46,833 bases of DNA from Actinomycetota bacterium (GTDB lineage: Bacteria; Actinomycetota; Acidimicrobiia; Acidimicrobiales; Acidimicrobiaceae): NCBI GenBank assembly GCA_027366165.1, contig DAHXKX010000032.1, positions 1 through 46,833 of the forward strand, written 5' to 3'. Position numbers and translations under genes: made by a program. The notes below the pieces were generated by a model that saw only the letters and a program-made list of their open reading frames with translations, made no database searches and was not told the DNA's origin. Numbering within the stretch: the first letter of the stretch is position 1; each line of letters begins with the position of its first letter. Below, one piece after another: positions 5,167 to 23,991 of the stretch.

Positions 5167-6492
5167 TTAACTCACGTCCAGGGATAGCAGATCACTAATT
5201 GTCTCTCTCCGCAACACCAGCCGATAGCCATGACTGTTCACAAATACGACTGCCGGACGACCCACCTTATTGTAATTCGACGCCATTGAATACCCATACG
5301 CTCCAGTGACTGGCGTTGCTATATAGTCCCCCACCATTGTGGATGAGGGTAGATGGCCATCTCTGACAAGGATATCACCAGACTCGCAGTGCTTTCCGAC
5401 TACAGTCACCTGCCAATCGCGCCGGGCTAGAACGTCATCCACAAGAAATGTCTCGTATCCACTGTCATATAGGACAGGCCTTGGATTGTCGCTCATTCCG
5501 CCATCCACGCTTACATAGGTCCGGATGCCCTGAATCCTCTTTATCGTCCCAACCTCATAGACCGTGATCGCAGCCGGTCCAACCAGGGAACGGCCCGGTT
5601 CGACCATGATCCGGGCCGACGACGGAATCCCCGCAGCTCTGGCACTTTCCTTGAGTGCCCAAGCCCAGTCGGCGAAGCCCAGGACTGGCTCACCAGCCAT
5701 GTACGGGATTCCCAAACCTCCGCCAAAATTGAGTTCCTCAACACCCGATGAGGAAAAGAACGGCGCCAGCACCTCCACCTCTTTGACGAAAGAATCAAGA
5801 GAAAAGATCTGGCTTCCGATATGAGCGTGCATTCCGACCAGTTCCAATTTGCTGGAAAGTCTCAGACGGTCCAACGCCAGTTTTGCGTCACCTGAAAGAA
5901 GTCCAAAGCCAAACTTGGAGTCGTCCTGTCCCGTCATGACGAACTCATGCGTATGGGCCTCTACGCCCGGAGTCACCCTTATCCAAACCTTCACATGGCT
6001 ATCTGGCGGAAGTAGCTCCTCCAAGCGGTCGATCTCATCGAAAGAATCAATCACTATCCTGCCGACACCTGCGGAAACAGCCAGTTCAAGCTCTGCAACC
6101 GACTTGTTGTTGCCGTGCATGACGATACGGTCAGGAGGAAAGTCGGCGCTGAGTGCTACAGAAAGCTCTCCGCCTGAGGCCACATCAATATGTAGTCCTT
6201 CTTCGGCGACAAGCTTGGCCATCGCCTTGCACAAGAACGCCTTTGAAGCGTAGGCAACATCATTCCCGAAATGCTCCTTCAGCTCTCTCGCCCGAGACCT
6301 GATCTGATCTTCGTCATAGATGAAAAGCGGGGATCCAAACTCGTCGACCAGATCCGATACTTTCTGTCCTCTAATCCATAGGGCACCATCACGGTCCACG
6401 CCGGATCCTTGGGGCAGAAGGTAGAGGGGAATTGGATCACTTGGATCGGCCTTTTCGGCTGGGCTGCTGAACAATCCTTCTGACTCGTTCAT
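5167..6492 (-). CDS. lysA: Diaminopimelate decarboxylase
   Basis: Fold-type III PLP enzyme that decarboxylates meso-diaminopimelate to lysine. Visible marks: PLP lysine in VAYASKAFLCKAM, HIGSQ, the glycine loop FGGGLGIPY, EPGRSLVGPA, and the substrate-side CESGDIL. About 441 residues, normal for the family. The start is either GTG 6495 or ATG 6492, both served by a GGAG just upstream; the ATG overlaps the argS stop codon in TGATG, so the two genes are translationally coupled. argS-lysA-hom-thrC is the usual actinomycete arrangement. Confidence 0.95.
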   Translation of the reverse strand: MNESEGLFSSPAEKADPSDPIPLYLLPQGSGVDRDGALWIRGQKVSDLVDEFGSPLFIYDEDQIRSRARELKEHFGNDVAYASKAFLCKAMAKLVAEEGLHIDVASGGELSVALSADFPPDRIVMHGNNKSVAELELAVSAGVGRIVIDSFDEIDRLEELLPPDSHVKVWIRVTPGVEAHTHEFVMTGQDDSKFGFGLLSGDAKLALDRLRLSSKLELVGMHAHIGSQIFSLDSFVKEVEVLAPFFSSSGVEELNFGGGLGIPYMAGEPVLGFADWAWALKESARAAGIPSSARIMVEPGRSLVGPAAITVYEVGTIKRIQGIRTYVSVDGGMSDNPRPVLYDSGYETFLVDDVLARRDWQVTVVGKHCESGDILVRDGHLPSSTMVGDYIATPVTGAYGYSMASNYNKVGRPAVVFVNSHGYRLVLRRETISDLLSLDVS

Positions 6493-8117
6493 CACATCTG
6501 CTCCAATGCCTCAACACCAAGAAGTGACAGTGCCACCCGGATTGCCACTTTGCATCCAGCAACAAGATACAGTCTGGCATAGGTGAGCTCGATTTCGACT
6601 GCGTCGGAAATCACATAGCAGTCATGATAGAAGCTGTGGAACAGTCCGGAAAAATCCTTCAGCCAATTGGCGATTTTGTAAGGCGCCCTGTCTAATCCCG
6701 CCTCCTCGACAACCTCCGGCAGCGACATCAACTCTCTCATCAATGCAAGCTCCCTCGGGTGCACCAAAAGCGAGAGGTCCACTTCGGAAATAGCAGGCAA
6801 AATGATTCCCCGCTGATCTTTCACCCTCTCAATGGATGCCATGCGAGCATGAGCATACTGGATGTAGTAGACCGGGTTGTCCATCGATTCAGCCTTGACC
6901 TTGTCCAGGTCCACCGAGGTTGCCCGATCTATCGAGGTGGACAGCGAGAGGAGCCTCGTTGCGGCCGGACCAAGATCATCCACAAGATCCTCGAGCGGAA
7001 TCAGATTTCCTTTCCGCTTTGAGAACTTCAGCCGATCGCTTCCCGAAAGTAGCGATACCATCTGCCCAAGTAGGATTTCAAGCTTTTCAGAACCAACTCC
7101 CACCGCATCCATTGCTGCTTTGAGCGAGGCAACCTGGCCATGGTGGTCGGCACCAAAGATGTCGATCACCCTTTGAAAGCCTCTCACTACAAACTTGTTG
7201 TAGTGGTATGCGATGTCACCGGCCAGGTAGGTGAAGTCGCCCTCCGCCTTTACCAGGTAGCGGTCCCGGGAGTCGCCAAACCTGGTGGAAAGGAAGATCT
7301 TCTTCGAATCCTCCTCTGCAATCAGCCCCTTCGAGTCCAACAGATCCAGGATCTCTTCAACTGCACCGGACTCCTCGATCGACGCCTGTGAAAACCAAAC
7401 GTCAAAGTGTATGCCAAGTTTGTCGAGTGAGATCTTGATCGTCTTCAGGTTCCGCTCAGCCGCCCACTTTCCAGCCGCCACAACATCTTCCGGTCCGGAA
7501 TACTCGGCTGCCAACTCCTTGACATAGTCGCCCTGATACCCCTCTTCTTCCACTTCACGACCCGCCCGCCGGGCAAGAAGGGACTCGCCAAGACGGCGTA
7601 TCTGCCCACCGGTATCATTTACGTAATACTCTGTTGACACCGCGTATCCGCAACGCCTCAGCAAACGGGCAAGTGCGTCGCCATATGAGGCCCACCATCC
7701 GTTTCCCACATGCAGAGGTCCGGTAGGATTTGCCGAACAGAACTCCAGCAATACCCGCTCACCGCCACCAACGCCAGACAGTGCGAAGGAGTCTTCACCC
7801 TTGAGGACGGCCTGGGCCAACTCTTCGTGAAGATACCCGCAATTCAAAAAAAAGTTGATGAACCCAGGACCAGCAATCTCTAACCTCTCCTGGTGCCTGA
7901 TCGGATTCTCATTGAGGTAGCCGCAAATTTTCTCCGCAAGCGATCTGGGACTTACTCCGAGCCGCTTGGCGGCAACCATTGCCACATTGGTGGAAAATTC
8001 TCCATGTTCGATACGCGCGGGCCTCTCCACAACAAACAGGGAGGGGTCAATTTCCAGACCCATACTCTCCATCGCTGCGCCAAGCGCTTCCGCGATCCTG
8101 TCTCGAACACCGTTCAC
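6492..8117 (-). CDS. argS: Arginyl-tRNA synthetase
   Basis: Class I aminoacyl-tRNA synthetase charging tRNA-Arg. The HIGH-type motif is HVGN in ANPTGPLHVGNGWW, with the KMSK-region counterpart DRLKFSKRKGN; the N-terminal Add1-like domain and the C-terminal anticodon-binding helices (DALR domain) are present. The frame can be read from TTG 8168, but GTG 8117 has AGGTGG five bases upstream and gives 541 residues starting VNGVRDRIAEAL, which matches where the family usually starts. It is divergent from tRNA-Arg(CCG), its own kind of substrate, about 110 bp away. Confidence 0.95.
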   Translation of the reverse strand: MNGVRDRIAEALGAAMESMGLEIDPSLFVVERPARIEHGEFSTNVAMVAAKRLGVSPRSLAEKICGYLNENPIRHQERLEIAGPGFINFFLNCGYLHEELAQAVLKGEDSFALSGVGGGERVLLEFCSANPTGPLHVGNGWWASYGDALARLLRRCGYAVSTEYYVNDTGGQIRRLGESLLARRAGREVEEEGYQGDYVKELAAEYSGPEDVVAAGKWAAERNLKTIKISLDKLGIHFDVWFSQASIEESGAVEEILDLLDSKGLIAEEDSKKIFLSTRFGDSRDRYLVKAEGDFTYLAGDIAYHYNKFVVRGFQRVIDIFGADHHGQVASLKAAMDAVGVGSEKLEILLGQMVSLLSGSDRLKFSKRKGNLIPLEDLVDDLGPAATRLLSLSTSIDRATSVDLDKVKAESMDNPVYYIQYAHARMASIERVKDQRGIILPAISEVDLSLLVHPRELALMRELMSLPEVVEEAGLDRAPYKIANWLKDFSGLFHSFYHDCYVISDAVEIELTYARLYLVAGCKVAIRVALSLLGVEALEQM

Positions 8118-8227
8118 CTTTCCCACCTTTAAGAGCACCTCAAAACCGTCTAACGAAACCCAACACAATCATTACATCGCACATACTGTGACGAACCTCA
8201 AAATTGCCACACTACTCTGGCTTATGT

Positions 8228-8300
8228 GCCCTCGTAGCTCAGGGGATAGAGCATCGGCCTCCGGAGCCGTGTGCGCAGGTTCGAATCCTGCCGAGGGCGC
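8228..8300 (+). tRNA. tRNA-Arg (anticodon CCG)
   Basis: Cloverleaf is complete: acceptor GCCCTCG (8228-8234) pairs with CGAGGGC (8292-8298), D-arm TAGCTCAGGGGATAGAGC, anticodon loop CTCCGGA with anticodon CCG reading CGG codons, and T-arm GCAGGTTCGAATCCTGC. The discriminator base is G and the CCA end is not encoded. It lies between argS and the MurE-like gene and is transcribed away from argS. Confidence 0.95.
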
Positions 8301-8577
8301 AAATCTTAACTAGCCAGCCTAGATGGACACCCGACTTTTCCGCAGGAAAAGACGCAGATTGACGCCCGGAGGAGTTCTGGACCGACAGCATGCGCCTTGG
8401 ACTAACCACCCCACGCCCCATCAGAATTGCTCCCAAGAAGTGCGATCTCATATCCGGACCCGTCCTGACAATCAACCAGTAATGTGAAAGACTTTGATAG
8501 CTTGGAATTGAATATATGAGGTTTTTCTTCCTAATCCTTGTCTTATGCGAAGCAGGTAAATATATAACGACAGCAAT

Positions 8578-12047: not shown

Positions 12048-12440
12048 TCAGACCATCCCACCACGGCGGGATTCAAGCGACACGTTTAACGCGGTGGAGA
12101 TTATGAAGGCCAAGCCCACAACCGCAAGCCAAACGCCAAATACCAGACTCAGCGCAGTCAGCGCAGCGCCCATACCAAGAACAAATGGCCAAATCGTATT
12201 AGCAGGAAACGTTCCAACCGGTCCTGATCCATCAGATAAAGTCGCATCCGCACGGTCCTCTGGCCTGGGAGGCATTCTATGGGCCCACCAGGCGAAGTAT
12301 AAACCTGGCATGATTCCCAATCCTGCCGCAGCAAAGAGCATTATGCTTCCGCCAGCCTCACCAGACCACAGGAAGTAGATCACCATGATCAAAAAGAAAA
12401 AGGCTCCAATCAGCAGATAGATTCCCCGTTCACTCTTCAT
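12048..12440 (-). CDS. ctaF: Cytochrome c oxidase subunit IV, actinobacterial type
   Basis: Small four-helix membrane subunit of the aa3 oxidase in Actinomycetota. The frame is open from 12497, but ATG 12440 has GGAG seven bases upstream and starts [16 protein letters not shown], the normal start of the family; this gives 130 residues. Hydrophobic helices are near residues 7-27, 33-50, 83-102 and 105-122, with the linker [13 protein letters not shown]. It overlaps the end of ctaD by 11 bp and ends the respiratory run. Confidence 0.88.
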
Positions 12441-14136
12441 TTGAAGTCTCCGTGCTTTCAGCGAGGACACCGCCGTGAGAAACTCTGTGGTCGGCATACT
12501 CAGGATGATTCATATCCCAAACAGGACGCTGTGACCTGATAGGAGGCAGCCTGTCAAAGTTGTGGTGCGACGGGGGGGAATCCGTCGCCCACTCGAGAGT
12601 ATGACCATCCCAAGGGTTCTTTGGCGCCGCGATAGGCTTTCTCCAAGAAATCCAAAGATTGATCATCCAGACTACGAAGGCAAATCCCGTCAAATAGGCA
12701 CCCACAGAGGATATCTGATTCAGAGTAGTGAAATGGTCTGCTGGGAGATACTCGGCGATGCGCCGAGGCATTCCCTTTAAACCAAGAAGGTACTGGGGCA
12801 AAAACGTCACGTTGAAACCGACGAATGTCAGCCAAAACTGAAGCTTTGCAAGCTTTTCCCTGTACATGCGCCCGGTTAGTTTGGGGTACCAATAGAAGAA
12901 ACCGCCAAATCCGGCAAAGACCGTCGTCCCGAATAACACCTGATGGAAGTGGGCGACGACAAAGTAGGTGTCGTGAGTGGCAAAGTCAATAGGTGGAGAC
13001 GCCAAAAGCACTCCGGTTATCCCACCCATTGTGAACACGATGATGAACCCAATGCAAAAAAGCATTGGAGCGCTGTAGTCAACCTGACCCCGCCACATTG
13101 TTCCGATCCATGTAAAGATCTTTATCCCTGTTGGAACCGCGATCAAAAGTGACAGGGCACTGAAGAATGGCAGTAAAACGGTTCCTGTAGTGAACATGTG
13201 GTGAGCCCACACACCGGTTGACAGTCCGGCAATCGCCATGGTTGCAAATACCAGTCCCTTATAACCGAAGACCGGCTTCCTGGAAAATACCGGCATAATT
13301 TCACTTACGATTCCAAAAAATGGAAGTGCGAGTATATAGACCTCAGGGTGGCCAAAGAACCAAAACAGGTTCTGCCATAGTACCGGTACTCCGCCCCCGG
13401 CAACCGAATATATGTGGGTCCCAAGGTGCCTGTCTGCCCAAAGCATGATCAATGCAGCAGTCAAGACAGGAAATGCAATGAGTATCAGAATTCCTGTCAC
13501 AAGCATATTCCACACAAATATTGGAAGCCGGAACATCGTCATACCCGGAGCACGGAGATAGAAGGTGGTGGTCACCAGGTTGACTGCAGTGAAAATACCG
13601 GAAAAACCAACCAACGCGATGGATACTATCCAAAGATCAGGCCCAGCACCCGGTGAATTCGTCGCACTTGAAAGTGGCGCATAGGCCACCCAACCAAACG
13701 CGGCGGCCCCAGACGCCGTCAGAAATCCCAAAAGCATGCTGATGCCACCTGTCAAGTACAACCAGTATGACAGAGCATTCAATCTTGGAAAAGCCATGTC
13801 CGGGGCCCCAATTTGGAGCGGAAGAATGTAGTTTGCGAATCCGCCGAACGCGAATGGTCCGGCAAACAGATAAAGCATCATCGAACCGTGGATCGTGAAG
13901 AGCTCGTTATAGGTCTGCGGAGACACAAAGTGGTTGTTGGGAGCGAAAAGCTGAGTCCTTATCAGCATTGCCAGCGCTCCGGCGATGATGAAAAACACCA
14001 GCGACGTATACATGTAGCTCTTGCCAATGATCTTATGATCGGTCGATGTCAACCATAGAAGGATGCCCTTTGGCTGCTCCTCATGATGAGCCTCTTCATG
14101 GTGATGAGAACCAATTTCCTCTGCGATTATTGTCAT
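12430..14136 (-). CDS. ctaD: Cytochrome c oxidase subunit I
   Basis: Heme-copper oxidase catalytic subunit of the aa3 type; 568 residues from ATG 14136. The CuB/heme a3 site is visible as [14 protein letters not shown] (His-Tyr pair), WAHHMFTTG and [10 protein letters not shown], and the D-channel region as [17 protein letters not shown]. About twelve membrane helices. A His/Glu-rich N-terminus ([13 protein letters not shown]) precedes the first helix. The start is chosen because the ATG overlaps the ctaC stop codon in ATGA and has AAGGTG upstream; the frame itself is open further to 14169. Confidence 0.97.
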
Positions 14137-14933
14137 GCTGTCACCTTTTGTTGCTGGGTGGCTAACCAACCGGAAAACTCCGTCGCACTCACCACTTTTA
14201 CATTAAAGAGCATCTCTGCGTGGTAAAGGCCACACAGCTGAGAACAGCGCCCGACAAAGCTTCCTGTCTTTGTTGGCGTGAAGTCGAAATAGTTGGTCAC
14301 GCCTGGAAGCGCATAGCGCGAGAAGTTGAACGCCGGGATGTAGAAACCGTGAACCACATCGTTCGAAACCAACTTGATCGTCGTAGTCTTGCCTTCGGGA
14401 AGTTCGAGAGTTGGATAGGTCGATCCCTTTGGAATGATAGTGACTCCGCCCGGGTACTCGAACTTCCAACCCCATTGGAATCCAACGACAGTGACCCTAA
14501 GTGCTGGATTTGCGCTGACGGCATCGATCTGGTTCTCCGACACAAAAGTCGCGGCGAAAAGTCCGATAACTATGAGAACAGGGATGATGGTATAGATAAG
14601 CTCCCACTTCAAATTCGAATGTGTCTGTACTGGTATATGATCCCCACGCCGTCGGAACTTGAACACAGCATAAAACAGGACTCCCCAAGTGATCCCACCA
14701 ACAAAAATCGCCGTGATAATGAATCCCTGCCACAGATGGAATTCATTTTGCCCTTGAGTAGTTGCACCCCTGAACGCGCCAAAAGTTGGCAACTTACAGG
14801 CACTTAGCAGTAATGCCCCCGCCGCCAATGCAACAGCATTTCTCTTGCTTTCAAAGAAGCGTCGCCGCTTCACCACCTCACACGTACCCTCACAGGCACT
14901 CGGCTTACCTAGCTGCACGATACCCAGTTCCAT
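14133..14933 (-). CDS. ctaC: Cytochrome c oxidase subunit II
   Basis: CuA-bearing subunit that takes electrons from cytochrome c. From ATG 14933 it has 266 residues: a lipobox-like LLLSAC with Cys46 as possible lipidation site, two membrane helices (about 68-92 and 109-132), and a periplasmic cupredoxin domain with CuA ligands His195, Cys230, Cys234, His238 and Met241. A later start at GTG 14876 or 14873 would remove about 20 residues that do not look like a signal peptide; GAGGG lies about ten bases before 14876. The ATGA overlap couples it to ctaD. A 141-bp spacer separates it from qcrB. Confidence 0.95.
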
Positions 14934-15075
14934 TCATGTTAATTTCCAACGCACCTGACACTTTGTGGCCCGCAGCTGGACCTAGACATTTAACCATCTG
15001 CAACGAGGTCTGCTTACCGACCATTGCCTCGATTTGACACTTGAAATCGGCGGTTGTGGTGCAGATCTGTTGCAT
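14905..15075 (-). CDS. Possible 56-residue ORF between qcrB and ctaC
   Basis: An ATG at 15075 overlaps the qcrB stop as TGATG, and the frame stays open for 56 codons, ending inside the first codons of the long ctaC frame. The product would start MQQICTTTADFKC, has three cysteines and no membrane helix. I know no family. The junction resembles the stop-start overlaps used elsewhere in this operon, which is the only argument for it; it would require ctaC to start further downstream. Confidence 0.22.
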   Translation of the reverse strand: MQQICTTTADFKCQIEAMVGKQTSLQMVKCLGPAAGHKVSGALEINMNGTGYRAAR

Positions 15076-16736
15076 CACTTTTCATCCTCAGAATCACTGA
15101 CTTCTTTGGACTGGCTTGGACCCCGAGGACTGAACATGCCTCCACCCGATCCCGGAGCTCCACGTGGAACTTCATAGACACCGCTGCCACCGCTCGGCCG
15201 CTCTCCGATCTCCTCTGCCAGCACAGCCGCTATAGAAGAGCCTGAAAATGCGTAGTCCTCGCCATCGTCTGCCGCTTCTATCGCTTCCCCGTGGAGACGA
15301 GACTCCTCTGGCAAGGACTGAGCGATGTCTCCGTGCATTGCGTGTCGCTTGAATTCGAGTTCAGGCCTTGGATCCGACTCCTCAGTGGTGTACTCGCCCT
15401 CTTTCGACCTGGACACCACCATTGCCTTCCTTGGCCTGCCGGCACTTTGCACCGATCCCGCCTCTACCGCCAGCTTGTGGGCCACTAAGGCCGCGACGGG
15501 AGGAATGACGAAAACAAGCACCCTGAAAGCCCAGAGAACGAAGTTGAGGGACACCTCGAACGTGTTTGCCAGGACATCTGTCGACGAGGCAAAGAATAGC
15601 ACCATGTAGAAGGCCATGACCCCTACGCCAATTGATGTTCTCCATGGATTATCCCGTGGATTATCCAGCAGATTATGAGCGGCGGTGTCCTTGGTGAAAA
15701 TTCGTTCAATCCATGGCCAGGCCATCAGGAGTCCAAAAGTAACTCCAGGTAACAGGACCGCTGGGAAAAAGACTGTGGGAATCATATGGCCAAAACCGGT
15801 GATCTCCCACGATGGAAACAGCCTGAGCGCACCATCCAGCCATCCCATGTACCAGTCCGGTTGAACGGCGTACGAGACTTTATAGGGGATATAGGGACCA
15901 TACAGCCAAATTGGATTTATCTGGACAAGACCACCCAGGGCCGCGAGCACCGACGCCGTAAGAAAGAAGAAACCTCCCGCCTGCATGGCGTAGGCTGGCC
16001 ACATTGCAATGCCAACCACATTCTTTTCGGTCTTGCCCTTGCCCTTGTACTGAGTGTGCTTCTGATGCCACATTATGGCCAAGTGGGCACCGAGAAGGCC
16101 TGCCATCAGGGCTGGAATGAGAAGAATGTGAATGGTGTAGAACCTCGGAATTATCGTGTTCCCAGGGAATTGACCACCAAATAGGAACGACGCAAGGTAG
16201 CTTCCTACAACTGGTATCGATAGAGTAATCGAATACGCAATCCTGATTCCTGTACCAGAGATGAGGTCATCCGGAAGCGAGTAGCCAAGGAACCCCTCAA
16301 ATATTGCCATCATCAGAAGTAGCGAACCAACCAGCCAATTGATTTCGCGAGGTTTGCGAAACGCCCCGGTGAAAAACACTCTCAGCAGATGGACAACAAT
16401 TGCCGCAATGAAAACGTTGGCTGCCCAGTGGTGCATTTGGCGCATTACCAGACCGGCACGCACGCTGAAGGACAGATTCAGCGTTGAGGCGTATGCCTGT
16501 GAAACAACATGCCCGTCCATCGGTGCGTAGCTTCCGTGATAGACGGTATCGGCAGACGACGGCACGAAGAAAAAGGTCAGAAAGACTCCGGTGGCCAAAA
16601 GTATGAAAAACGAATACATGGCGATTTCACCAAGCATGAACGACCAGTGGTCGGGAAAGATCTTATTCAAAGACTTTCTGGTGAACTTGGCGGTGCCAAG
16701 TCTCTCATCCACCCAATCAATCGGCTTGTAGTTCAT
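15075..16736 (-). CDS. qcrB: Cytochrome bc1 complex, cytochrome b subunit
   Basis: Quinol:cytochrome c reductase subunit holding hemes bL and bH; 553 residues from ATG 16736. Heme ligand histidines lie in MRQMHHWAANVFIAAIVVHL and in IHILLIPALMAGLLGAH..MWHQKH. A PEWY-like loop of the quinol site appears as QPDWYMGWLDG, the form seen in actinomycetes. The long C-terminal extension (about 150 residues beyond the core, ending in a Gly/Ser-rich acidic tail) is also typical of the group. Start overlaps the qcrA stop as ATGA, with GGGAG upstream. Confidence 0.96.
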   Translation of the reverse strand: MNYKPIDWVDERLGTAKFTRKSLNKIFPDHWSFMLGEIAMYSFFILLATGVFLTFFFVPSSADTVYHGSYAPMDGHVVSQAYASTLNLSFSVRAGLVMRQMHHWAANVFIAAIVVHLLRVFFTGAFRKPREINWLVGSLLLMMAIFEGFLGYSLPDDLISGTGIRIAYSITLSIPVVGSYLASFLFGGQFPGNTIIPRFYTIHILLIPALMAGLLGAHLAIMWHQKHTQYKGKGKTEKNVVGIAMWPAYAMQAGGFFFLTASVLAALGGLVQINPIWLYGPYIPYKVSYAVQPDWYMGWLDGALRLFPSWEITGFGHMIPTVFFPAVLLPGVTFGLLMAWPWIERIFTKDTAAHNLLDNPRDNPWRTSIGVGVMAFYMVLFFASSTDVLANTFEVSLNFVLWAFRVLVFVIPPVAALVAHKLAVEAGSVQSAGRPRKAMVVSRSKEGEYTTEESDPRPELEFKRHAMHGDIAQSLPEESRLHGEAIEAADDGEDYAFSGSSIAAVLAEEIGERPSGGSGVYEVPRGAPGSGGGMFSPRGPSQSKEVSDSEDEK

Positions 16737-17632
16737 GCTCGCTCCCAAAATCCGGGGCCGATCGGTTCATCGAAACCAGCTTGAGCCCTCAGATAACCCT
16801 GGGAATCAATCTCCAATGGAAGTTGCGGTAGAGGCCTTGGCGCAGGACCGAACACTGGATTCGCGCCTGTCATAACGTCGAAAAGAGACTGATGGCATGG
16901 ACACAACAGCTGCTGAGTCAGCTCCTGATATAAGCCGACCGGACAGCCCGCATGCGTGCATACCTTTGAATAAGCCAGGTACCCCTGGGGTCCCCATGTA
17001 TCCCGCCCAGGTTTGGTGACAATGTCCTCGAACGAAGGCCTGATCAGTATCGACTGGGAGATCGCTCCACCCGCATGTCCCTCTGGAAACACCGTTAGCA
17101 CGCCGCCAACCTCAAGGTCGGTTGAGTGGACCTTGGTTCCATCACTCTTCACCAAAGCGGAACCCTTCTTCCAGTTGGTTACATATAGCATCTTCTTGGG
17201 CTGGGGCCCAAGAGACCGGATGAACGGGAAGAGAGTAATCACTCCAAACGCAGCGACTGATGCCCCCAACAACTTGGCTAGGAAGCTTCTCCGCTGGATG
17301 AGCTTATTCCCCCGCTCGAAAGACTCCACAAACGCTTCACGCTCGGATTCAGTGCTCTGCAGCTCTTCGCGTTCCTGAACGTAGGGACCCTGCGGCACCA
17401 GATACTTGCCCCAGGCTACGATCCCGAAACCAATGCCGCCCAAAGCCACGAATAGCAGGGCTCCTTCAATCTGAGTCTGACCACCCTGCCAATACACAAC
17501 CCCAAGCCCTATCGTCGCCAAGAATGAGAGGGCGAAACTAACTCCCACAGCTCTTTCAAAACGACGTTCAGAAGCCTTTAAAAGACTCTCCCCATCTAGT
17601 TCTTGTTCCAGTTCCGGAGTCGAGCCACTCAA
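16733..17632 (-). CDS. qcrA: Cytochrome bc1 complex, Rieske iron-sulfur subunit
   Basis: Carries the high-potential [2Fe-2S] cluster of the bc1 complex. The cluster motifs are CTHAGC and CPCHQS with the Pro loop near GPAPRPLPQLPL. The 299 residues include an N-terminal region with three hydrophobic segments (about 31-50, 56-75 and 119-140), as in actinobacterial QcrA, which has three membrane helices instead of one. The gene overlaps qcrC upstream and qcrB downstream by 4 bp each (ATGA), so QcrC, QcrA and QcrB are made in a coupled way. Confidence 0.96.
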   Translation of the reverse strand: MSGSTPELEQELDGESLLKASERRFERAVGVSFALSFLATIGLGVVYWQGGQTQIEGALLFVALGGIGFGIVAWGKYLVPQGPYVQEREELQSTESEREAFVESFERGNKLIQRRSFLAKLLGASVAAFGVITLFPFIRSLGPQPKKMLYVTNWKKGSALVKSDGTKVHSTDLEVGGVLTVFPEGHAGGAISQSILIRPSFEDIVTKPGRDTWGPQGYLAYSKVCTHAGCPVGLYQELTQQLLCPCHQSLFDVMTGANPVFGPAPRPLPQLPLEIDSQGYLRAQAGFDEPIGPGFWERA

Positions 17633-18483
17633 TGCGCCCGACCTCCAATCCAGTATCCAGCTATCATCAATGACCCCAAACCAATCAAAATTCCTACAAA
17701 ACCTTCAGTAACAGGCCCAACATGGCCAAGTCCGATACCACCAGCATTATTTGGATGCTGAAGGTATTTGACGTACTTCACAATGTCCGCAACTTGCTGG
17801 TCGCTCAGGTTACCGGTACCAAACCTCGGCATGTTGCCGGGTCCGGTCCTAATCGCCTCAGCAACCTGTGTTGTGGTCGCAGGATAAAGAGAGGGCGCAT
17901 AAACACCACCTGCCAAGGCATCGCCAACACCGGTTATGGTGTGACAGGCAGCGCAGTTTGTGGAGAACAAACCTTCCCCTGCACTGATCGATGCCGAACC
18001 AAGATTTACCTGGGGAATTTTCGGTCCGCCCGATGCCAGCGAGGACACGTACGCATCAATTGCCAGGGTCTGCTGTCTAGTAAACCTTGACGGCTTTACG
18101 GTTGCCTGCACCGTCGGGTCAGCAAGCGGCATCCGACCGGTGGAAACCCAGAAGTCAATCGTAGCAGCACCAAGACCCTGAAGGTTTGGAGCCCTACTTG
18201 TACCCGATGCGGCGTCACCATGACAACTCGAGCAGTTTTCGACAAACAGCGTCTTGCCAAGCGCGATCGTGGCCGGATCCAGCTTCACATTCGTAACTGG
18301 CGCGCTACCAGCGCCTAAAGTACCACCATAAGTTATGGAATTGGCACCCCTTGCACTCGAAGAGCCTGTTGATGTTGCCGCAACCGCCCCTTGCGAAAAC
18401 AGGGCCATTCCACCTACTGAAGCAGCAACACCCAGCGCTACCGGGACAACGACGCGCCCACCCAACTTCTTTCGGAATTTCAA
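17629..18483 (-). CDS. qcrC: Diheme cytochrome c subunit of the bc1 complex
   Basis: Actinobacterial bc1 uses a membrane-bound diheme cytochrome c that passes electrons straight to CuA of the oxidase. The two heme motifs are CSSCH (84-88) and CAACH (177-181); axial methionines are probably in GRMPL and GNMPRFG. A signal/anchor helix lies near residues 10-35 and a C-terminal helix near 255-278 (GFVGILIGLGSLMIAGYWI). At 284 residues it is of normal length. It starts 11 bp after ctaE. Confidence 0.95.
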   Translation of the reverse strand: MKFRKKLGGRVVVPVALGVAASVGGMALFSQGAVAATSTGSSSARGANSITYGGTLGAGSAPVTNVKLDPATIALGKTLFVENCSSCHGDAASGTSRAPNLQGLGAATIDFWVSTGRMPLADPTVQATVKPSRFTRQQTLAIDAYVSSLASGGPKIPQVNLGSASISAGEGLFSTNCAACHTITGVGDALAGGVYAPSLYPATTTQVAEAIRTGPGNMPRFGTGNLSDQQVADIVKYVKYLQHPNNAGGIGLGHVGPVTEGFVGILIGLGSLMIAGYWIGGRAH

Positions 18484-18494
18484 CGGATTATCTC

Positions 18495-19094
18495 CTAGTG
18501 GACCAGGAATAATGTCGCATAAAGCGCTATCCAGACAATATCGACAAAGTGCCAGTAGTAGCTGATTGACTGCATAACTGGAAGGAGTCCCGGATCCCTA
18601 GACCTGCCCGCAATTCTGATCAAGAGAAATACCATTGCGACAAGCCCGAGGAAAACGTGCAGACCGTGTAAACCGGTCATCAGAAAAAATAGCGAGCCAA
18701 ACGCATTTGTCGATGGAGAAAACGCCACGTGTGTCCACTCGTAAAGCTGGTTTCCCAAAAACGCAAATCCCATGACCATGGTGACTCCAATCCAAAGCCG
18801 TGCGGACCTCCGTCTGCCATGCTCAAGATCGAAAACAGCTTTTTGCATTGAAAATGAGCTGAGAACAAGAACCACCGTGAAAATCCCAGACTGGATAACA
18901 TCAAGCTTGATGCCTCCCAAGGGCCAAGGACCAGTCGCGTTCGCTCGTATGGAGTAGTATGCGGCGAAAAGTCCGGAGAAAAACATCAGCTCCGAACCGA
19001 GCCAAACCATGGTGCCAACGCCGAGCATGGTTGGTTTGTTGAACCTTATTCCTCCTTGTACCGGCTCAACAGAAGCTGCAATTGCCTGAGTCAT
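18495..19094 (-). CDS. ctaE: Cytochrome c oxidase subunit III
   Basis: Membrane subunit of the aa3 oxidase, 199 residues, about five helices as in actinomycetes. Family marks: MVWLGSELMFFSGLFAAYYSIRA, FFLMTGLHGLHVFLGL and the end YYWHFVDIVWIALYATLFLVH. ctaE ahead of qcrCAB is the standard order. Unusual here is that its ATG overlaps the helD stop codon as ATGA, so it is tied to the helicase gene upstream. Confidence 0.96.
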   Translation of the reverse strand: MTQAIAASVEPVQGGIRFNKPTMLGVGTMVWLGSELMFFSGLFAAYYSIRANATGPWPLGGIKLDVIQSGIFTVVLVLSSFSMQKAVFDLEHGRRRSARLWIGVTMVMGFAFLGNQLYEWTHVAFSPSTNAFGSLFFLMTGLHGLHVFLGLVAMVFLLIRIAGRSRDPGLLPVMQSISYYWHFVDIVWIALYATLFLVH

Positions 19095-21355
19095 AAAACC
19101 GTCAAATTACCCTTCATCCCCGATTCGCCCAATAACAAATTATTCGGCATTTCTTTCCCATTACCTGATTTTTGCTGTGATATCAAATCAACAATAACAT
19201 CCGGCACATCGCTATTGTGCACAAAAACTAATCGCTTGGTAGTTCGAGTCATGGCCACGAATAGAGCCTGAAGATTCAAGGCACCGGCCGGTAGCAGCCG
19301 ATTTGCCCCTGAGATCACCACCGAATCGAACTCCAGACCTTTTGCCTCACGGATCGATAGTACCGACAGAGGCTCCTGCGGAAATGCGGAGGCGTTCAAC
19401 CCGGCGCGGGCAAGTTCCTCCAGGTAAACAACCTTTTCTACATCAGGAACGATCAGCGCAACCGTCCCAGGTTCCACCAAGCCAACCTCATTGCGCACCA
19501 CGTCCGCCAAAAGACCAAAAAACTTTTCAGTCCCGACCGAAGTCATGACCACCGGCTCTCCGCTGTGGCGAATTGAAATCGCCGGCTTGAGTTCCGGAGC
19601 GAACTCCTCCAGCAGGCCACCAGCAATATCCATCACCTCCTGGGGTGTCCTATAATTCACCTTCAGCTCAACCAGTTTGAACGAATCCACTTTTTGCATC
19701 GGTGAAACGATCTCCTGCCATGTACGTTGACCAAAAGGAGAGGTGGCCTGGGCTACATCGCCAACGAGAGTCATTGATCCAGATAGCGAATTTCTGCCGA
19801 CCATCCTGGCGGCAAGTGGAGTTAGGTCCTGCGCTTCATCCACGATGAGGTGCCCGTAGGCCCGCTCGTCGTCGGCTTCGTCTGACCTTTTCTGATAGCT
19901 CCCCAAATGGACTTTTGCCTCATTGAGCAACACAAGGTCTGACCTTGACCATGATTTGGCCTTTCCGCCGGACGACCCAGGCCGATAAAGGAGCTTCATC
20001 TCAGCTTCTGAAAGGATCGACTTGCCGGCCAAGCGAATCAAAGGCAAATGCGAATAGAGATCTGCCACCAGCATCTCAGGTGACAGTCTTGGCCAGATCC
20101 TCTGAATCAGCCTTTGGAACTCTGGAGACTTCCTGACACGAAGAGCCAAAGCTCGTTTTGCCTGATTCTCCTCGGCCGCTCCCGCCTCGCCAAAATTAAC
20201 CAACTCTTCATCGAATTCACCATCGCCTGACCCCGGTTCACTGAAACGCACGTCACTCTTGGCAAGATACTTGTCAGCAATCTTCACAGCGAGTAATGAC
20301 TCAACGAACCTATGCCTCTGGTTATGGGTACCACTGCGACGTTTGGTAGTTCGTATCGCCTCAGCCGTATCCTCAGGGGTGACTGTGACGACATAGGCTC
20401 CGAGAGCAACTTCCACCGGATGTTTCAGAGGCCTCTCGCGATCACGAATTGCCTTGGTTATGAAGCCGATCATCCTCAGGTCGCCTTTGAGACGGGCCTC
20501 CTCCTCGCTCTCGTTCAAAGTCGCCTCTCCAAATCCTGCCAGCCCGTGGACCGTCGTAATCTGCACACCGGTCTCACCGAGCGATGGGAGCACGTGATCT
20601 ATGTATCGTGCGAATATCCGACTGGGTGCGACAACGAGAACTCCTTGACGCTCGAGCCGCATCCTATAGGTATACAGGAGGTAGGCGGCACGATGAAGGG
20701 CGACAGCGGTCTTGCCTGTTCCGGGACCGCCCTGGACAATGAGCATCCCGGAAAGGGGGGAACGGATCACCTCGTCCTGCTGAGCCTGAATTGTGGAGAC
20801 GATATCCACCATCCTGCCGGTTCGAGTTCGGGTAACTGCCGCAAATAGAGAGCCGGGTCCAGCCAGCCTGAGTTCCCCAGAGTCTTGCTGGCCGGAAATT
20901 TCCCCGTCAGAATCGAACAGCTCATCTTCGATTGAAACCAGCACCTTATGCTCCAAGGCAAAGTGCCTTCTCCTAGAGAGACCCATTGGCTCCTTGCCTG
21001 TCGCCCGATAAAAGGGCTCCGCTACCGGAGCCCTCCAGTCAACCACGAGTGGCTCCATGGTTTCATCGGAGACAGCAAGCCGGCCAATGTGATAGGTGCA
21101 CACTTGCGCAAGAACGGTGTCGTAGTCGATACCTCCGAAACTGAGCGCTTGGTCACCAATCTCGAGCTGTTCGAGTCGGGCGAGACTCTGCCGAACAATG
21201 ACGTCCCGCTCAGCTCTAGCCTGATGAGTTCCTCCGCGTGGAGTGCCAAGAACCGACTCCATCATCTCTCTCGCAGATACCCTCATTGCTTCCAAATGAT
21301 CGTTTGCTTTGGCAAGATACTTTTGTTCTGCAGCCAAATCTGGATTTAGCGACAC
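19091..21355 (-). CDS. helD: HelD-type RNA polymerase recycling motor (UvrD/Rep-like ATPase)
   Basis: Superfamily 1 ATPase of 754 residues. HelD binds stalled RNA polymerase, pries its clamp open and releases nucleic acid; some actinobacterial members protect against rifampicin. Seen: an N-terminal coiled-coil region (about 1-65), the HelD segment with EPLVVDWRAPVAEPFYRAT, Walker A GGPGTGKT (209-216), Walker B HLIVDEAQDLTPLAARMV, GDVAQATSPFGQRTW and late helicase motifs with LSIREAKGLEFDSVV and VAMTRTTKRLV. The WRAP and GLSRRRHF stretch separates it from true UvrD/PcrA. GTG start with AAAGG five bases upstream. It is the first gene of the respiratory run and divergent from hemE. Confidence 0.9.
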   Translation of the reverse strand: MSLNPDLAAEQKYLAKANDHLEAMRVSAREMMESVLGTPRGGTHQARAERDVIVRQSLARLEQLEIGDQALSFGGIDYDTVLAQVCTYHIGRLAVSDETMEPLVVDWRAPVAEPFYRATGKEPMGLSRRRHFALEHKVLVSIEDELFDSDGEISGQQDSGELRLAGPGSLFAAVTRTRTGRMVDIVSTIQAQQDEVIRSPLSGMLIVQGGPGTGKTAVALHRAAYLLYTYRMRLERQGVLVVAPSRIFARYIDHVLPSLGETGVQITTVHGLAGFGEATLNESEEEARLKGDLRMIGFITKAIRDRERPLKHPVEVALGAYVVTVTPEDTAEAIRTTKRRSGTHNQRHRFVESLLAVKIADKYLAKSDVRFSEPGSGDGEFDEELVNFGEAGAAEENQAKRALALRVRKSPEFQRLIQRIWPRLSPEMLVADLYSHLPLIRLAGKSILSEAEMKLLYRPGSSGGKAKSWSRSDLVLLNEAKVHLGSYQKRSDEADDERAYGHLIVDEAQDLTPLAARMVGRNSLSGSMTLVGDVAQATSPFGQRTWQEIVSPMQKVDSFKLVELKVNYRTPQEVMDIAGGLLEEFAPELKPAISIRHSGEPVVMTSVGTEKFFGLLADVVRNEVGLVEPGTVALIVPDVEKVVYLEELARAGLNASAFPQEPLSVLSIREAKGLEFDSVVISGANRLLPAGALNLQALFVAMTRTTKRLVFVHNSDVPDVIVDLISQQKSGNGKEMPNNLLLGESGMKGNLTVL

Positions 21356-21519
21356 GTAAACCTTTTCTTCGCTAGAAAACTTAAATAACTATTCATTTTA
21401 TCTTCGTTTGGACCAGCTTCCTCAACATTACGGTTTTGCCCAACCGAGGCACATGCAGAATTGGCGGGTGTCCACAGAATGAATTTCCCTTTTCGAATCT
21501 AAGCTTCTAATAGCGTTTT

Positions 21520-22596
21520 ATGAAGGGCCAGGGTTTGTCCCATAAATTAGAAAATGATCTGGTAATCAGGGCCGCCATGGGCGAGCGTACGCCAAATGTC
21601 CCGGTATGGTTCATGCGTCAGGCAGGACGTTCGCTTCCTGAATACAGAGCAGTCAGGAAACGCGGGTCAATTTTGGACACAATTCAAGACCCGCAGTTGA
21701 GCGCTGAAATCACGCTCCAACCGGTGAGGCGCTACGGGGTGGACGCTGCAATTCTCTACTCGGACATAATAGTTCCAACCTTCGCCGTGGGCTTCGGGAT
21801 AGAGGTGGTCGAGGGCAGGGGTCCGGTTATCAGAGACCCATTCCGCTCCGAAGATGACCTCAAGCGCCTTCGCGATCTTGAACCCGAGACTGACACCGCA
21901 TATGTCATTGAAACCATCAAAATCCTTGCAAATGAACTCAGCGTTCCCCTGATCGGATTCGCAGGTGCACCTTTCACCGTTGCCAGCTACCTGATCGAAG
22001 GTGGCCCGAGTAGGACCTACGTCAAGACTAAGTCGCTCATGCGTTTGAACCCTGTGCTGTGGCACCAGCTCATGGAACGACTTACCAGACTGGCGATCGC
22101 ATCTCTCGAATCACAGATCAGAGCCGGAGCCGCAATGTTCCAGCTATTTGACTCTTGGGTGGGTATCCTCTCCCCATCCGAATATCGCGAGATGGTCGCT
22201 CCACATTCAAACGCCATATTCCGAGGGCTGGCACACCTCAATATACCGTCGATCCATTTCGGCGTGGGAACAGCGAGTCTTTTGGAGCAAATGGCCAAGT
22301 CAGGTTGCACCGTGGTCGGCGTCGACGATCGGACCGGCCTAGACGACGCTTTTCGAATCACTAAAGGGAAAGTGGCGCTTCAAGGCAATCTAGATCCGGT
22401 CAACATCCTCATAGGCACTGAAGCTGCGCTGAATGAGTCCAGAAAGGTTCTTTCGGCATCGGCGATCTCTCCAGGCTACATTTTCAATCTGGGACATGGA
22501 ATACTTCCTGAATCAGACCCTGAGGTGATCAAAGCCGTTGTCGACCTTGTCCACGAAAAGGGCGCCGGCCTCAGGGAAGACGCGTCAAAACCATAA
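21520..22596 (+). CDS. hemE: Uroporphyrinogen decarboxylase
   Basis: Cytosolic enzyme converting uroporphyrinogen III to coproporphyrinogen III. Signature VWFMRQAGRSLPEYR lies at the N-terminus, with the catalytic Asp region AILYSDIIVPTFAVG, FAGAPFTVASYLIEG, and the late NLGHGILPESDPE. The length of 358 residues is normal. No Shine-Dalgarno site precedes ATG 21520; TAATAG at 21508-21513 would suit a -10 box of a leaderless transcript, common in actinomycetes, but this is only suggestive. The next gene starts 15 bp downstream, so the two heme genes form an operon. Confidence 0.96.
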   Translation: MKGQGLSHKLENDLVIRAAMGERTPNVPVWFMRQAGRSLPEYRAVRKRGSILDTIQDPQLSAEITLQPVRRYGVDAAILYSDIIVPTFAVGFGIEVVEGRGPVIRDPFRSEDDLKRLRDLEPETDTAYVIETIKILANELSVPLIGFAGAPFTVASYLIEGGPSRTYVKTKSLMRLNPVLWHQLMERLTRLAIASLESQIRAGAAMFQLFDSWVGILSPSEYREMVAPHSNAIFRGLAHLNIPSIHFGVGTASLLEQMAKSGCTVVGVDDRTGLDDAFRITKGKVALQGNLDPVNILIGTEAALNESRKVLSASAISPGYIFNLGHGILPESDPEVIKAVVDLVHEKGAGLREDASKP

Positions 22597-22611: not shown

Positions 22612-23991
22612 GTGACTAAGGTTGTTGTCATAGGAGGAGGCATATCAGGCCTCACATCGGCATATTTTCTATCGCAGCAGATTGACCCGCGCGACATAAC
22701 GGTGATCGAATCCGACGATCACCTCGGCGGCACCGTCAGTGCAGTGGAGTTTGGCTCCCATTTGGCGGAGACTGGTCCGGACTCTTTCATAACAAGAAAT
22801 CCATCCGCCATCGATCTGGCGGCAGACCTTCATCTGTCTGAAAGGCTCATATCCCCTGCGACAAACTCGGCTTTCATTTATTCCCGCTCAGCACTCCATC
22901 CAATTCCGTCCGGAACCGTTTTTGGAGCGCCAAGTGACTTCAATAAATTCTTTGGAAATTCGCTGTTATCAAAGACTGGACAGCTGAGAGCAGCCATGGA
23001 GCCACTATTGGGTCACGCAAAGATCCAAGGCGATACAACGGTTGGGTCCTTCGCCAAAAAGAGATGGGGTAAAGAGGTAACCGACAGACTGATTGAACCG
23101 CTTGTCGGGGGCATCCATGCCGGGACTGTCTATGAACTCTCATTGGCTCAGTGCGCTCCGCAATATTTAGACGCCGCCCAAACAAAGAGGTCGGTTTCAA
23201 AAGGTCTCAAATCCCAGATGGCCAATTACACGCCAAGCGGACATCCTATGTTCTACTCTCTTGAGGGTGGCCTTTCCGGTCTGGTTGACGGCCTGGTCAG
23301 TCTTTTGGAAGAACGAAACGTGGAGATCCTCACAAGATGCGAATCCGCAGAGATCCGGCCTTTGGCTGACGGCTACAGAATAACCACAGAAAAAAGGTCC
23401 TTCGATGCGGAGGGCATTATCTGCGCCACCCCTGCCTTTGTGGCGTCACGGCTTCTAAAGGCTGTGAGCAGCACGGCATCAGAGCTTCTAGATACCATTG
23501 ACTATGCGTCGCCGATAATGACCCTGCTCGGCTACGAAGACGCTTCTTTTGGCGAGCCTCTTCGCGGATCCGGGGTGCTTGTTCCAAGACAAAATAAAAC
23601 ACTAACGACGGCCATCACCTTCGCAACCAACAAATGGCCTGGCTGGAAGAGCGAAGGCGAGACGATCCTTCGGGTGTCGGCTGGGCGAATCGGAGACAAC
23701 CGAGTTTGGGAATTCGATGACAGAAGTCTTGTTGCAACCCTCGAAGCCGAGATGACAAAGATCCTGGGGGTTAGGTCACGATCTATTCGAAGCAAGGTCG
23801 CCCGATGGCAGAAGCGAATTCCCCAGTTCAAGCCATATCATGCACAGTTGATCCAACGCATCAGGGAAAGTCTCCCCTCAGGTGTTGAACTGGCCGGAGC
23901 ACCGTTCCTGGGAGTCGGAATACCCGCATGCATTTCAAGCGCATCGCTTGCGGCTGATCGACTGGTCAAAACCCTGTCTAAGCCTCGCTGA
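22612..23991 (+). CDS. cgoX: Coproporphyrinogen III / protoporphyrinogen oxidase (HemY family)
   Basis: FAD enzyme with N-terminal dinucleotide fold VVVIGGGISGLTSAYFLSQQ and a C-terminal FAD-binding ending (GAPFLGVGIPACISSA). The 459-residue size and sequence match the HemY/PPOX family. In Actinomycetota this family oxidises coproporphyrinogen III to coproporphyrin III, and a coproheme decarboxylase gene is present at 32.2 kb, so I favour CgoX over a classical protoporphyrinogen oxidase. GTG start with AGGAG five bases upstream. It converges with cobT, overlapping by 14 bp. Confidence 0.9.
   Translation: MTKVVVIGGGISGLTSAYFLSQQIDPRDITVIESDDHLGGTVSAVEFGSHLAETGPDSFITRNPSAIDLAADLHLSERLISPATNSAFIYSRSALHPIPSGTVFGAPSDFNKFFGNSLLSKTGQLRAAMEPLLGHAKIQGDTTVGSFAKKRWGKEVTDRLIEPLVGGIHAGTVYELSLAQCAPQYLDAAQTKRSVSKGLKSQMANYTPSGHPMFYSLEGGLSGLVDGLVSLLEERNVEILTRCESAEIRPLADGYRITTEKRSFDAEGIICATPAFVASRLLKAVSSTASELLDTIDYASPIMTLLGYEDASFGEPLRGSGVLVPRQNKTLTTAITFATNKWPGWKSEGETILRVSAGRIGDNRVWEFDDRSLVATLEAEMTKILGVRSRSIRSKVARWQKRIPQFKPYHAQLIQRIRESLPSGVELAGAPFLGVGIPACISSASLAADRLVKTLSKPR

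Follow-up and report, generated by a model that had tools for sequence, protein, structure and literature searches.

Position and inheritance of helD between heme-synthesis and bc1-aa3 oxidase genes in the Acidimicrobiales

Genes of the locus and the HelD protein

The stretch of DNA analysed here, referred to as the window, comprises 46,833 nucleotides of an Acidimicrobiaceae genome. Within it, helD is the first gene of a minus-strand run that continues into the genes of a bc1-aa3 respiratory chain, and two genes that we take to be hemE and hemY diverge upstream of it (Table 1). In relatives, a ferrochelatase gene (hemH, by Pfam) lies between hemE and hemY. As the first-pass annotation had claimed, the TGA of helD falls within the ATG of ctaE, and the genes that follow are closely packed: 11 nt separate ctaE from qcrC, qcrC and qcrA overlap by 4 nt and qcrA and qcrB by 16 nt, but there is a gap of 141 nt between qcrB and ctaC, after which ctaC, ctaD and the ctaF-like gene overlap again when the starts of the longest ORFs are used. 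The ctaE start is supported by an N-terminus, (M/V)(S/T)QA, that is common to relatives, and a misannotated start was dropped as an explanation on the same grounds.

Table 1. Features of the helD locus, in window coordinates.
Feature	Position	Strand	Remarks
ctaF-like small membrane protein gene	12048-12497	-	by position; 3' of ctaD in several relatives too
ctaD, oxidase subunit I	12430-14169	-	Pfam/NCBIfam; longest ORF, start uncertain
ctaC, oxidase subunit II	14133-14933	-	Pfam/NCBIfam
qcrB, cytochrome b	15075-16748	-	Pfam/NCBIfam
qcrA, Rieske subunit	16733-17632	-	Pfam/NCBIfam
qcrC, diheme cytochrome c subunit	17629-18483	-	Pfam/NCBIfam
ctaE, aa3 oxidase subunit III	18495-19094	-	Pfam/NCBIfam
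ATGA overlap of helD stop and ctaE start	19091-19094	-	4 nt; ctaE ATG at 19094-19092
Block GGGGATGAAGGGTAATTTGACGG 5' of ctaE	19099-19121	-	same in L178 except for 2 bases
TAATTT inside block GGGGATGAAGGGTAATTTGACGG	19104-19109	-	putative -10 or initiation signal for ctaE; resembles the order-wide element only weakly
Codons of the 25-aa HelD tail SGNGKEMPNNLLLGESGMKGNLTVL	19094-19168	-	read through the lost stop
helD	19091-21355	-	754 aa, GTG start, TGA stop at 19093-19091; HelD class II-like, without PCh-loop
helD/hemE divergent intergenic region	21356-21519	.	164 bp
hemE, uroporphyrinogen decarboxylase	21520-22596	+	divergent partner of helD; homologues order-wide by tblastn
hemY, protoporphyrinogen oxidase	22612-23991	+	3' of hemE

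The order ctaE-qcrC-qcrA-qcrB on one strand, with short spacing, is that of an actinobacterial bc1-aa3 operon. Consistent with this, qcrC and qcrB score above the actinobacterial NCBIfam cut-offs, and for ctaE, qcrA, ctaC and ctaD the top NCBIfam model is the actinobacterial one, with scores just below the cut-off. The gene order of ctaE-qcrCAB is identical in Corynebacterium and Mycobacterium; unlike the operon of those genera, the one in the window has helD in front of it and hemE-hemY opposite. Neither helD nor hemE was found within 6 kb of ctaE in the mycobacterial and other actinomycete loci examined.

By sequence and predicted fold, the helD product is a genuine HelD, and it is the only one in its genome at E 1e-30. 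Its strong sequence matches in the PDB are the HelD proteins of M. smegmatis (303 bits, residues 6-724) and B. subtilis (104 bits). The M. smegmatis protein is also the best fold match (Foldseek E 2e-36; Z 23.8) of an AlphaFold2 model with a mean pLDDT of 64, and of about 90 in the clamp arm; HelD structures lead the matches of this model in both Foldseek and VIA-align. The SF1 motor is recognisable from GxPGTGKT and DExQD motifs kept in 10 aligned relatives and from Pfam UvrD/AAA_19 above cut-off, the N-terminal secondary-channel arm from modelled helices 5-37 and 44-63, in a part of low confidence, and the clamp arm from a confident insert at about 270-490.

The similarity to the class II protein of M. 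smegmatis, MSMEG_2174 (HelD/HelR; PDB 6YXU, 8Q3I), extends over the full length, and the two proteins have in common the Walker A motif GGPGTGKT, the DEAQD and YRTP motifs, an N-terminal helical hairpin and a clamp arm inserted in domain 1A. They differ at the PCh-loop, the clamp-arm element that characterises class II HelD (PMC11464796, PMC8655204), of which two residues at the tip, Glu484 and Asp485 in M. smegmatis, are needed for rifampicin resistance (PMC10719064). Residues 461-514 of MSMEG_2174 (about 54, with the tip residues Glu484/Asp485 and Gln490) are without counterpart in the window protein, and the spacing from LLxE to GHxxxDEAQD is 21 residues, compared with roughly 80 in the mycobacterial protein. 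The segment required for displacing rifampicin is therefore missing, and the description of this HelD as being of the rifampicin-protection type is unsupported. The scores are below the curated cut-offs of the NCBIfam models for HelR (NF041258, 410.6 of 1100 bits) and mycobacterial HelD (NF041465, 365.2 of 1051 bits), and the class II-like assignment, made by sequence only, is not one to class II in the strict sense. From what is known of the family, the protein should still act as an RNA polymerase recycling factor. A search upstream of helD for a consensus of the Rifamycin associated element, which is a weak test, gave no match with 3 or fewer mismatches.

In most families, the HelDs encoded next to hemE have 13-30 residues at the PCh-loop position. 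Those of family f4 (L068-L079) are unlike this short form and carry an insert of 42-63 residues. One genome (G079) encodes a second HelD away from hemE (L081:8199-10484, minus strand) with an insert of 104 residues at the same position, in which two CxxC-type pairs (CPRCGS...CEYATCG) resemble a zinc ribbon.

Gene order, overlap and inheritance

Gene order was surveyed in 138 genomes of Acidimicrobiales, with membership of the order resting on MAG records labelled Acidimicrobiaceae, Acidimicrobiales, and with linkage defined as divergent helD and hemE within 6 kb. By this measure, the two genes are linked in 98 of the 116 genomes that have both, representing 47 of 52 families, and in 62 of these 98 genomes they are less than 600 bp apart. 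In 30 genomes from 12 families, helD is followed on the same strand, within 12 kb, by a ctaE of the window's type, and among the 148 genomes surveyed for the class, every member of families f1 and f4 has helD adjacent to ctaE. The adjacency is thus not unique to the window's genome, which the first-pass annotation had singled out as the point to be checked; its recurrence in 12 of the order's families puts it far beyond chance. Contamination or an assembly artefact was dropped as its cause in view of the many independent assemblies. The pairing of helD with the hem genes is the wider of the two conserved linkages. Outside the order, none of the 21 genomes with both genes in a phylum sample, for which coordinates were compared by eye, has helD and hemE within 6 kb.

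Maps of about 90 loci delineate a conserved block, in which hemY-(hemH)-hemE is divergent from helD-ctaE-qcrC-qcrA-qcrB. Near hemE in 59 loci, which were picked around the cluster and so favour helD, cobT occurs 11 times and gltA 3 times, compared with 51 times for helD and 58 for hemY. An identical cluster, hemY-hemE opposite helD-ctaE-qcrCAB, is found in the genome that we take to be Acidimicrobium ferrooxidans (G014); Ilumatobacter coccineus is presumably also among the order genomes surveyed. The A. ferrooxidans HelD, Afer_1829, appears in a paper from which the words operon and synteny are absent (PMC8655204).

Conservation of the gene order does not extend to the ATGA overlap. In the nearest relative found (MAG FW021_bin.20, locus L178), whose CtaE is 90% identical to that of the window, the alignment places the end of helD about 70 nt before ctaE; a gap of 40 nt, obtained when tblastn read past the stop, was discarded. 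Where L178 has AAA TAA, the window has AAA TCA, and the 25 additional HelD residues that follow, SGNGKEMPNNLLLGESGMKGNLTVL, are absent from relatives and have a pLDDT under 35. The overlap would thus have arisen by loss of the helD stop codon in the window's genome, with the reading frame continuing to the ctaE start. At loci where helD and ctaE are close, nearly all gaps are of 3-72 nt, and only one other locus has a value of -4 (G126). The overlap is therefore local to this species, and the translational coupling proposed from it is unsupported. Because overlaps of 4 nt are common in bacterial operons, such an overlap taken alone is weak evidence.

In families f10 and f74, helD and ctaE are separated by genes on the opposite strand. 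One such gene encodes a sigma-70-family factor with regions 2, 3 and 4 (L065:9905-11624 and L115:8761-9639), and in f10 the two genes also have between them a gene for a LuxR-type regulator, in the orientation of helD.

The history of the cluster was traced in a tree of concatenated QcrB, CtaE, QcrA and QcrC (51 rows, 1190 columns), which replaced a HemE tree whose long branches left too little resolution for the ancestral state. The deep branches of the order have the helD-linked state, and the HelD tree has 21 of 36 splits in common with the operon tree (permuted mean 0.2, maximum 2); the cluster is thus old and vertically inherited. Loci without helD are nested at no fewer than three places forced by well-supported branches, so that helD has been lost from the cluster at least three times while ctaE-qcrCAB remained opposite hemE. 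In nine helD-less genomes, ctaE faces hemE directly at a distance of 75-340 bp. Incompleteness of the helD-less genomes was dropped as an explanation, given these nine loci and the 80-97% completeness of the 15 genomes that lack any HelD at E 1e-5. It follows from the retention of the operon after these losses that helD is dispensable for the operon keeping its place. Horizontal acquisition of helD by Acidimicrobiia has been proposed (PMC8655204), and since the position of helD is common across the order, its entry into the Acidimicrobiales, if by transfer, preceded the order's radiation. One genome of family f61 (G172), with no helD between hemE and ctaE (L157:about 5976-8378), has a HelD on another contig, which represents a relocation or a paralogue.

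Candidate start signals

In 78 hemE-helD intergenic regions, -10-like hexamers of the form TANANT directed toward helD are found in 41, compared with 14 expected, and TAGACT in the same direction occurs 12 times, compared with 1.2 expected. Most of the -10-like hexamers lie 25-70 nt before helD, and there is no excess of TANANT toward hemE in the 78 regions. The window and L178 have a block of this region in common. A k-mer search of 78 hemE-helD/ctaE regions for a common operator found nothing convincing beyond the TAGACT-like and -10-like hexamers, and no sigma-70 consensus match of 9/12 or better was found in the helD-hemE region, the best match in the window being an uninformative 7/12. 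On the hemE side, the start context in the window (21505-21522, ctaatagcgttttATG) has TAGCGT a few bases before the ATG, and a motif search upstream of hemE yielded a similar weak consensus, TAGCGTC, near the start, which may represent a leaderless promoter.

The region 5' of ctaE contains a bipartite element, (A)TGTG or TTGG followed after about 17-20 nt by cgaCTA(A/G)(A/G)AA, that ends 5-8 nt before the start codon, both in families that have helD and in those that lack it. With each family represented by a single sequence, expectation maximisation reached a log-likelihood of 158, compared with 69-86 for shuffled sequences, and placed the element at a fixed position in 17 of 19 families. Furthermore, when training was confined to loci that contain helD, the resulting model scored highest at 4-8 nt upstream of the start codon in 9 of 11 helD-less loci (1.5 expected); the reverse hold-out, trained on 7 helD-less families, returned an off-register motif and is left out as support. 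In the window's own family the element is weak, with a best score of 1.5 bits in the window and -5.8 in G014, and the sequence GGGGATGAAGGGTA.TTT.ACGG before the window's ctaE is kept in L178. We read the element as a leaderless promoter, but it could be a translation-initiation signal instead. Taken with the hexamers directed toward helD, it suggests that helD and ctaE each have a start of their own, with possible read-through.

These observations bear on the first-pass proposal that HelD is made together with the respiratory chain. A promoter-like element stands at a fixed distance before ctaE in the majority of families, genomes that lack helD among them, and the operon was kept after the three or more losses of helD, which is thus not needed there. 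Of the strong internal promoter and the terminator that were named as features that might separate the two genes, the former has a promoter-like candidate in relatives that is weak in the window, and for the latter no terminator-like site was found between helD and ctaE in the window. Given the weak ctaE element of the window's family, read-through from helD could matter most there. The further suggestion that the arrangement simply gives helD a strong promoter fails on gene order: helD lies upstream of ctaE, and therefore only ctaE could gain by read-through.

Interpretation of the cluster

The reading that we favour, with a probability of about 0.68, is that of an ancestral cluster of heme, helD and respiratory genes, inherited vertically as separately promoted units between which read-through is possible. 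In the ancestral Acidimicrobiales arrangement, hemY-(hemH)-hemE would occupy one strand, with helD and then ctaE-qcrCAB divergent from it, and with ctaCD-ctaF in addition in the window's family. HelD would be a housekeeping protein whose gene is transcribed independently, most likely from a promoter in the hemE-helD divergent region, and ctaE-qcrCAB would start from its own signal immediately 5' of ctaE, with helD transcription adding at most read-through. We infer both the promoter nature of the elements and the separate regulation of the units. Points against this reading are the weak ctaE element in the window's family, the lack of a terminator-like site between helD and ctaE, the possible translational role of the element, and the persistence of helD at this spot across the order, which is stronger than one would expect of a gene that is simply carried along.

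Pure hitchhiking, in which helD is unrelated to its neighbours and has been kept between essential operons by slow rearrangement, is compatible with much of the favoured reading, and the two partly overlap, as a hitchhiking gene can also be independently promoted. Vertical inheritance fits it, as do the repeated losses of helD that left the operon unaffected and the location of HelD genes elsewhere in the genome in other classes and orders. As the whole account we think it somewhat unlikely, for slow rearrangement sits poorly with the outer neighbours cobT, gltA and GNAT, which occur in far fewer loci than the core of hemY-hemE and helD. Translational coupling and co-transcription of helD with the bc1-aa3 operon, such that rescue of RNA polymerase follows the energy state, would agree with the overlap in the window, with the lack of a terminator-like site there and with helD-ctaE gaps that do not exceed 72 nt at most of the loci in families f1, f4, f52, f58, f70 and f72. 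It is very improbable given the missing overlap in L178, the opposite-strand genes in f10 and f74, the positioned element before ctaE and the dispensability of helD.

A reason for the proximity of heme and oxidase genes comes from Corynebacterium, where ctaE-qcrCAB is an operon of its own and where the regulator HrrA represses hemE, hemA and hemH and activates ctaE-qcrCAB (PMC7337898). A hem/cta cluster is therefore reasonable, but helD is not accounted for and is the odd member. A further proposal is that a heme-, iron- or oxygen-responsive regulator acts at the hemE/helD divergent promoter and controls heme synthesis, HelD and, via read-through, the oxidase, so that recycling of RNA polymerase is tuned to respiratory capacity. 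The pairing in 47 families across mostly short intergenic regions speaks for such shared regulation, as do the position of HelD as the only member of the locus that belongs to neither heme synthesis nor respiration and the existence of one Corynebacterium regulator for both hemE and ctaE-qcrCAB (PMC7337898). Even so we consider it unlikely, because the 78 intergenic regions have no operator-like motif in common beyond the -10-like hexamers, because ctaE stayed opposite hemE through three or more losses of helD, and because many families have helD-hemE without ctaE. Its more specific form, in which a HelD without PCh-loop and the heme-synthesis genes answer to one divergent promoter, as does the bc1-aa3 operon via read-through, so that RNA polymerase recycling is tied to heme and respiratory status, is more doubtful still. 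Shared control at the region between hemE and helD is nonetheless, at low odds, the most interesting possibility; if true, it would give HelD a physiological role unrelated to rifampicin. The first-pass annotation knew of no established link, and our search of the accessible literature likewise found none that connects HelD with cytochrome oxidase or with heme operons.

For annotators, the locus carries a caution, namely that an ATGA overlap seen in one genome may be missing even in its closest relatives. For the biology of HelD, whose cellular role beyond rifampicin protection is little defined, the Acidimicrobiales offer a clean comparative system for studying the protein in ordinary growth: an order-wide, vertically inherited position of helD by heme genes, no drug-displacing loop, and several independent losses.
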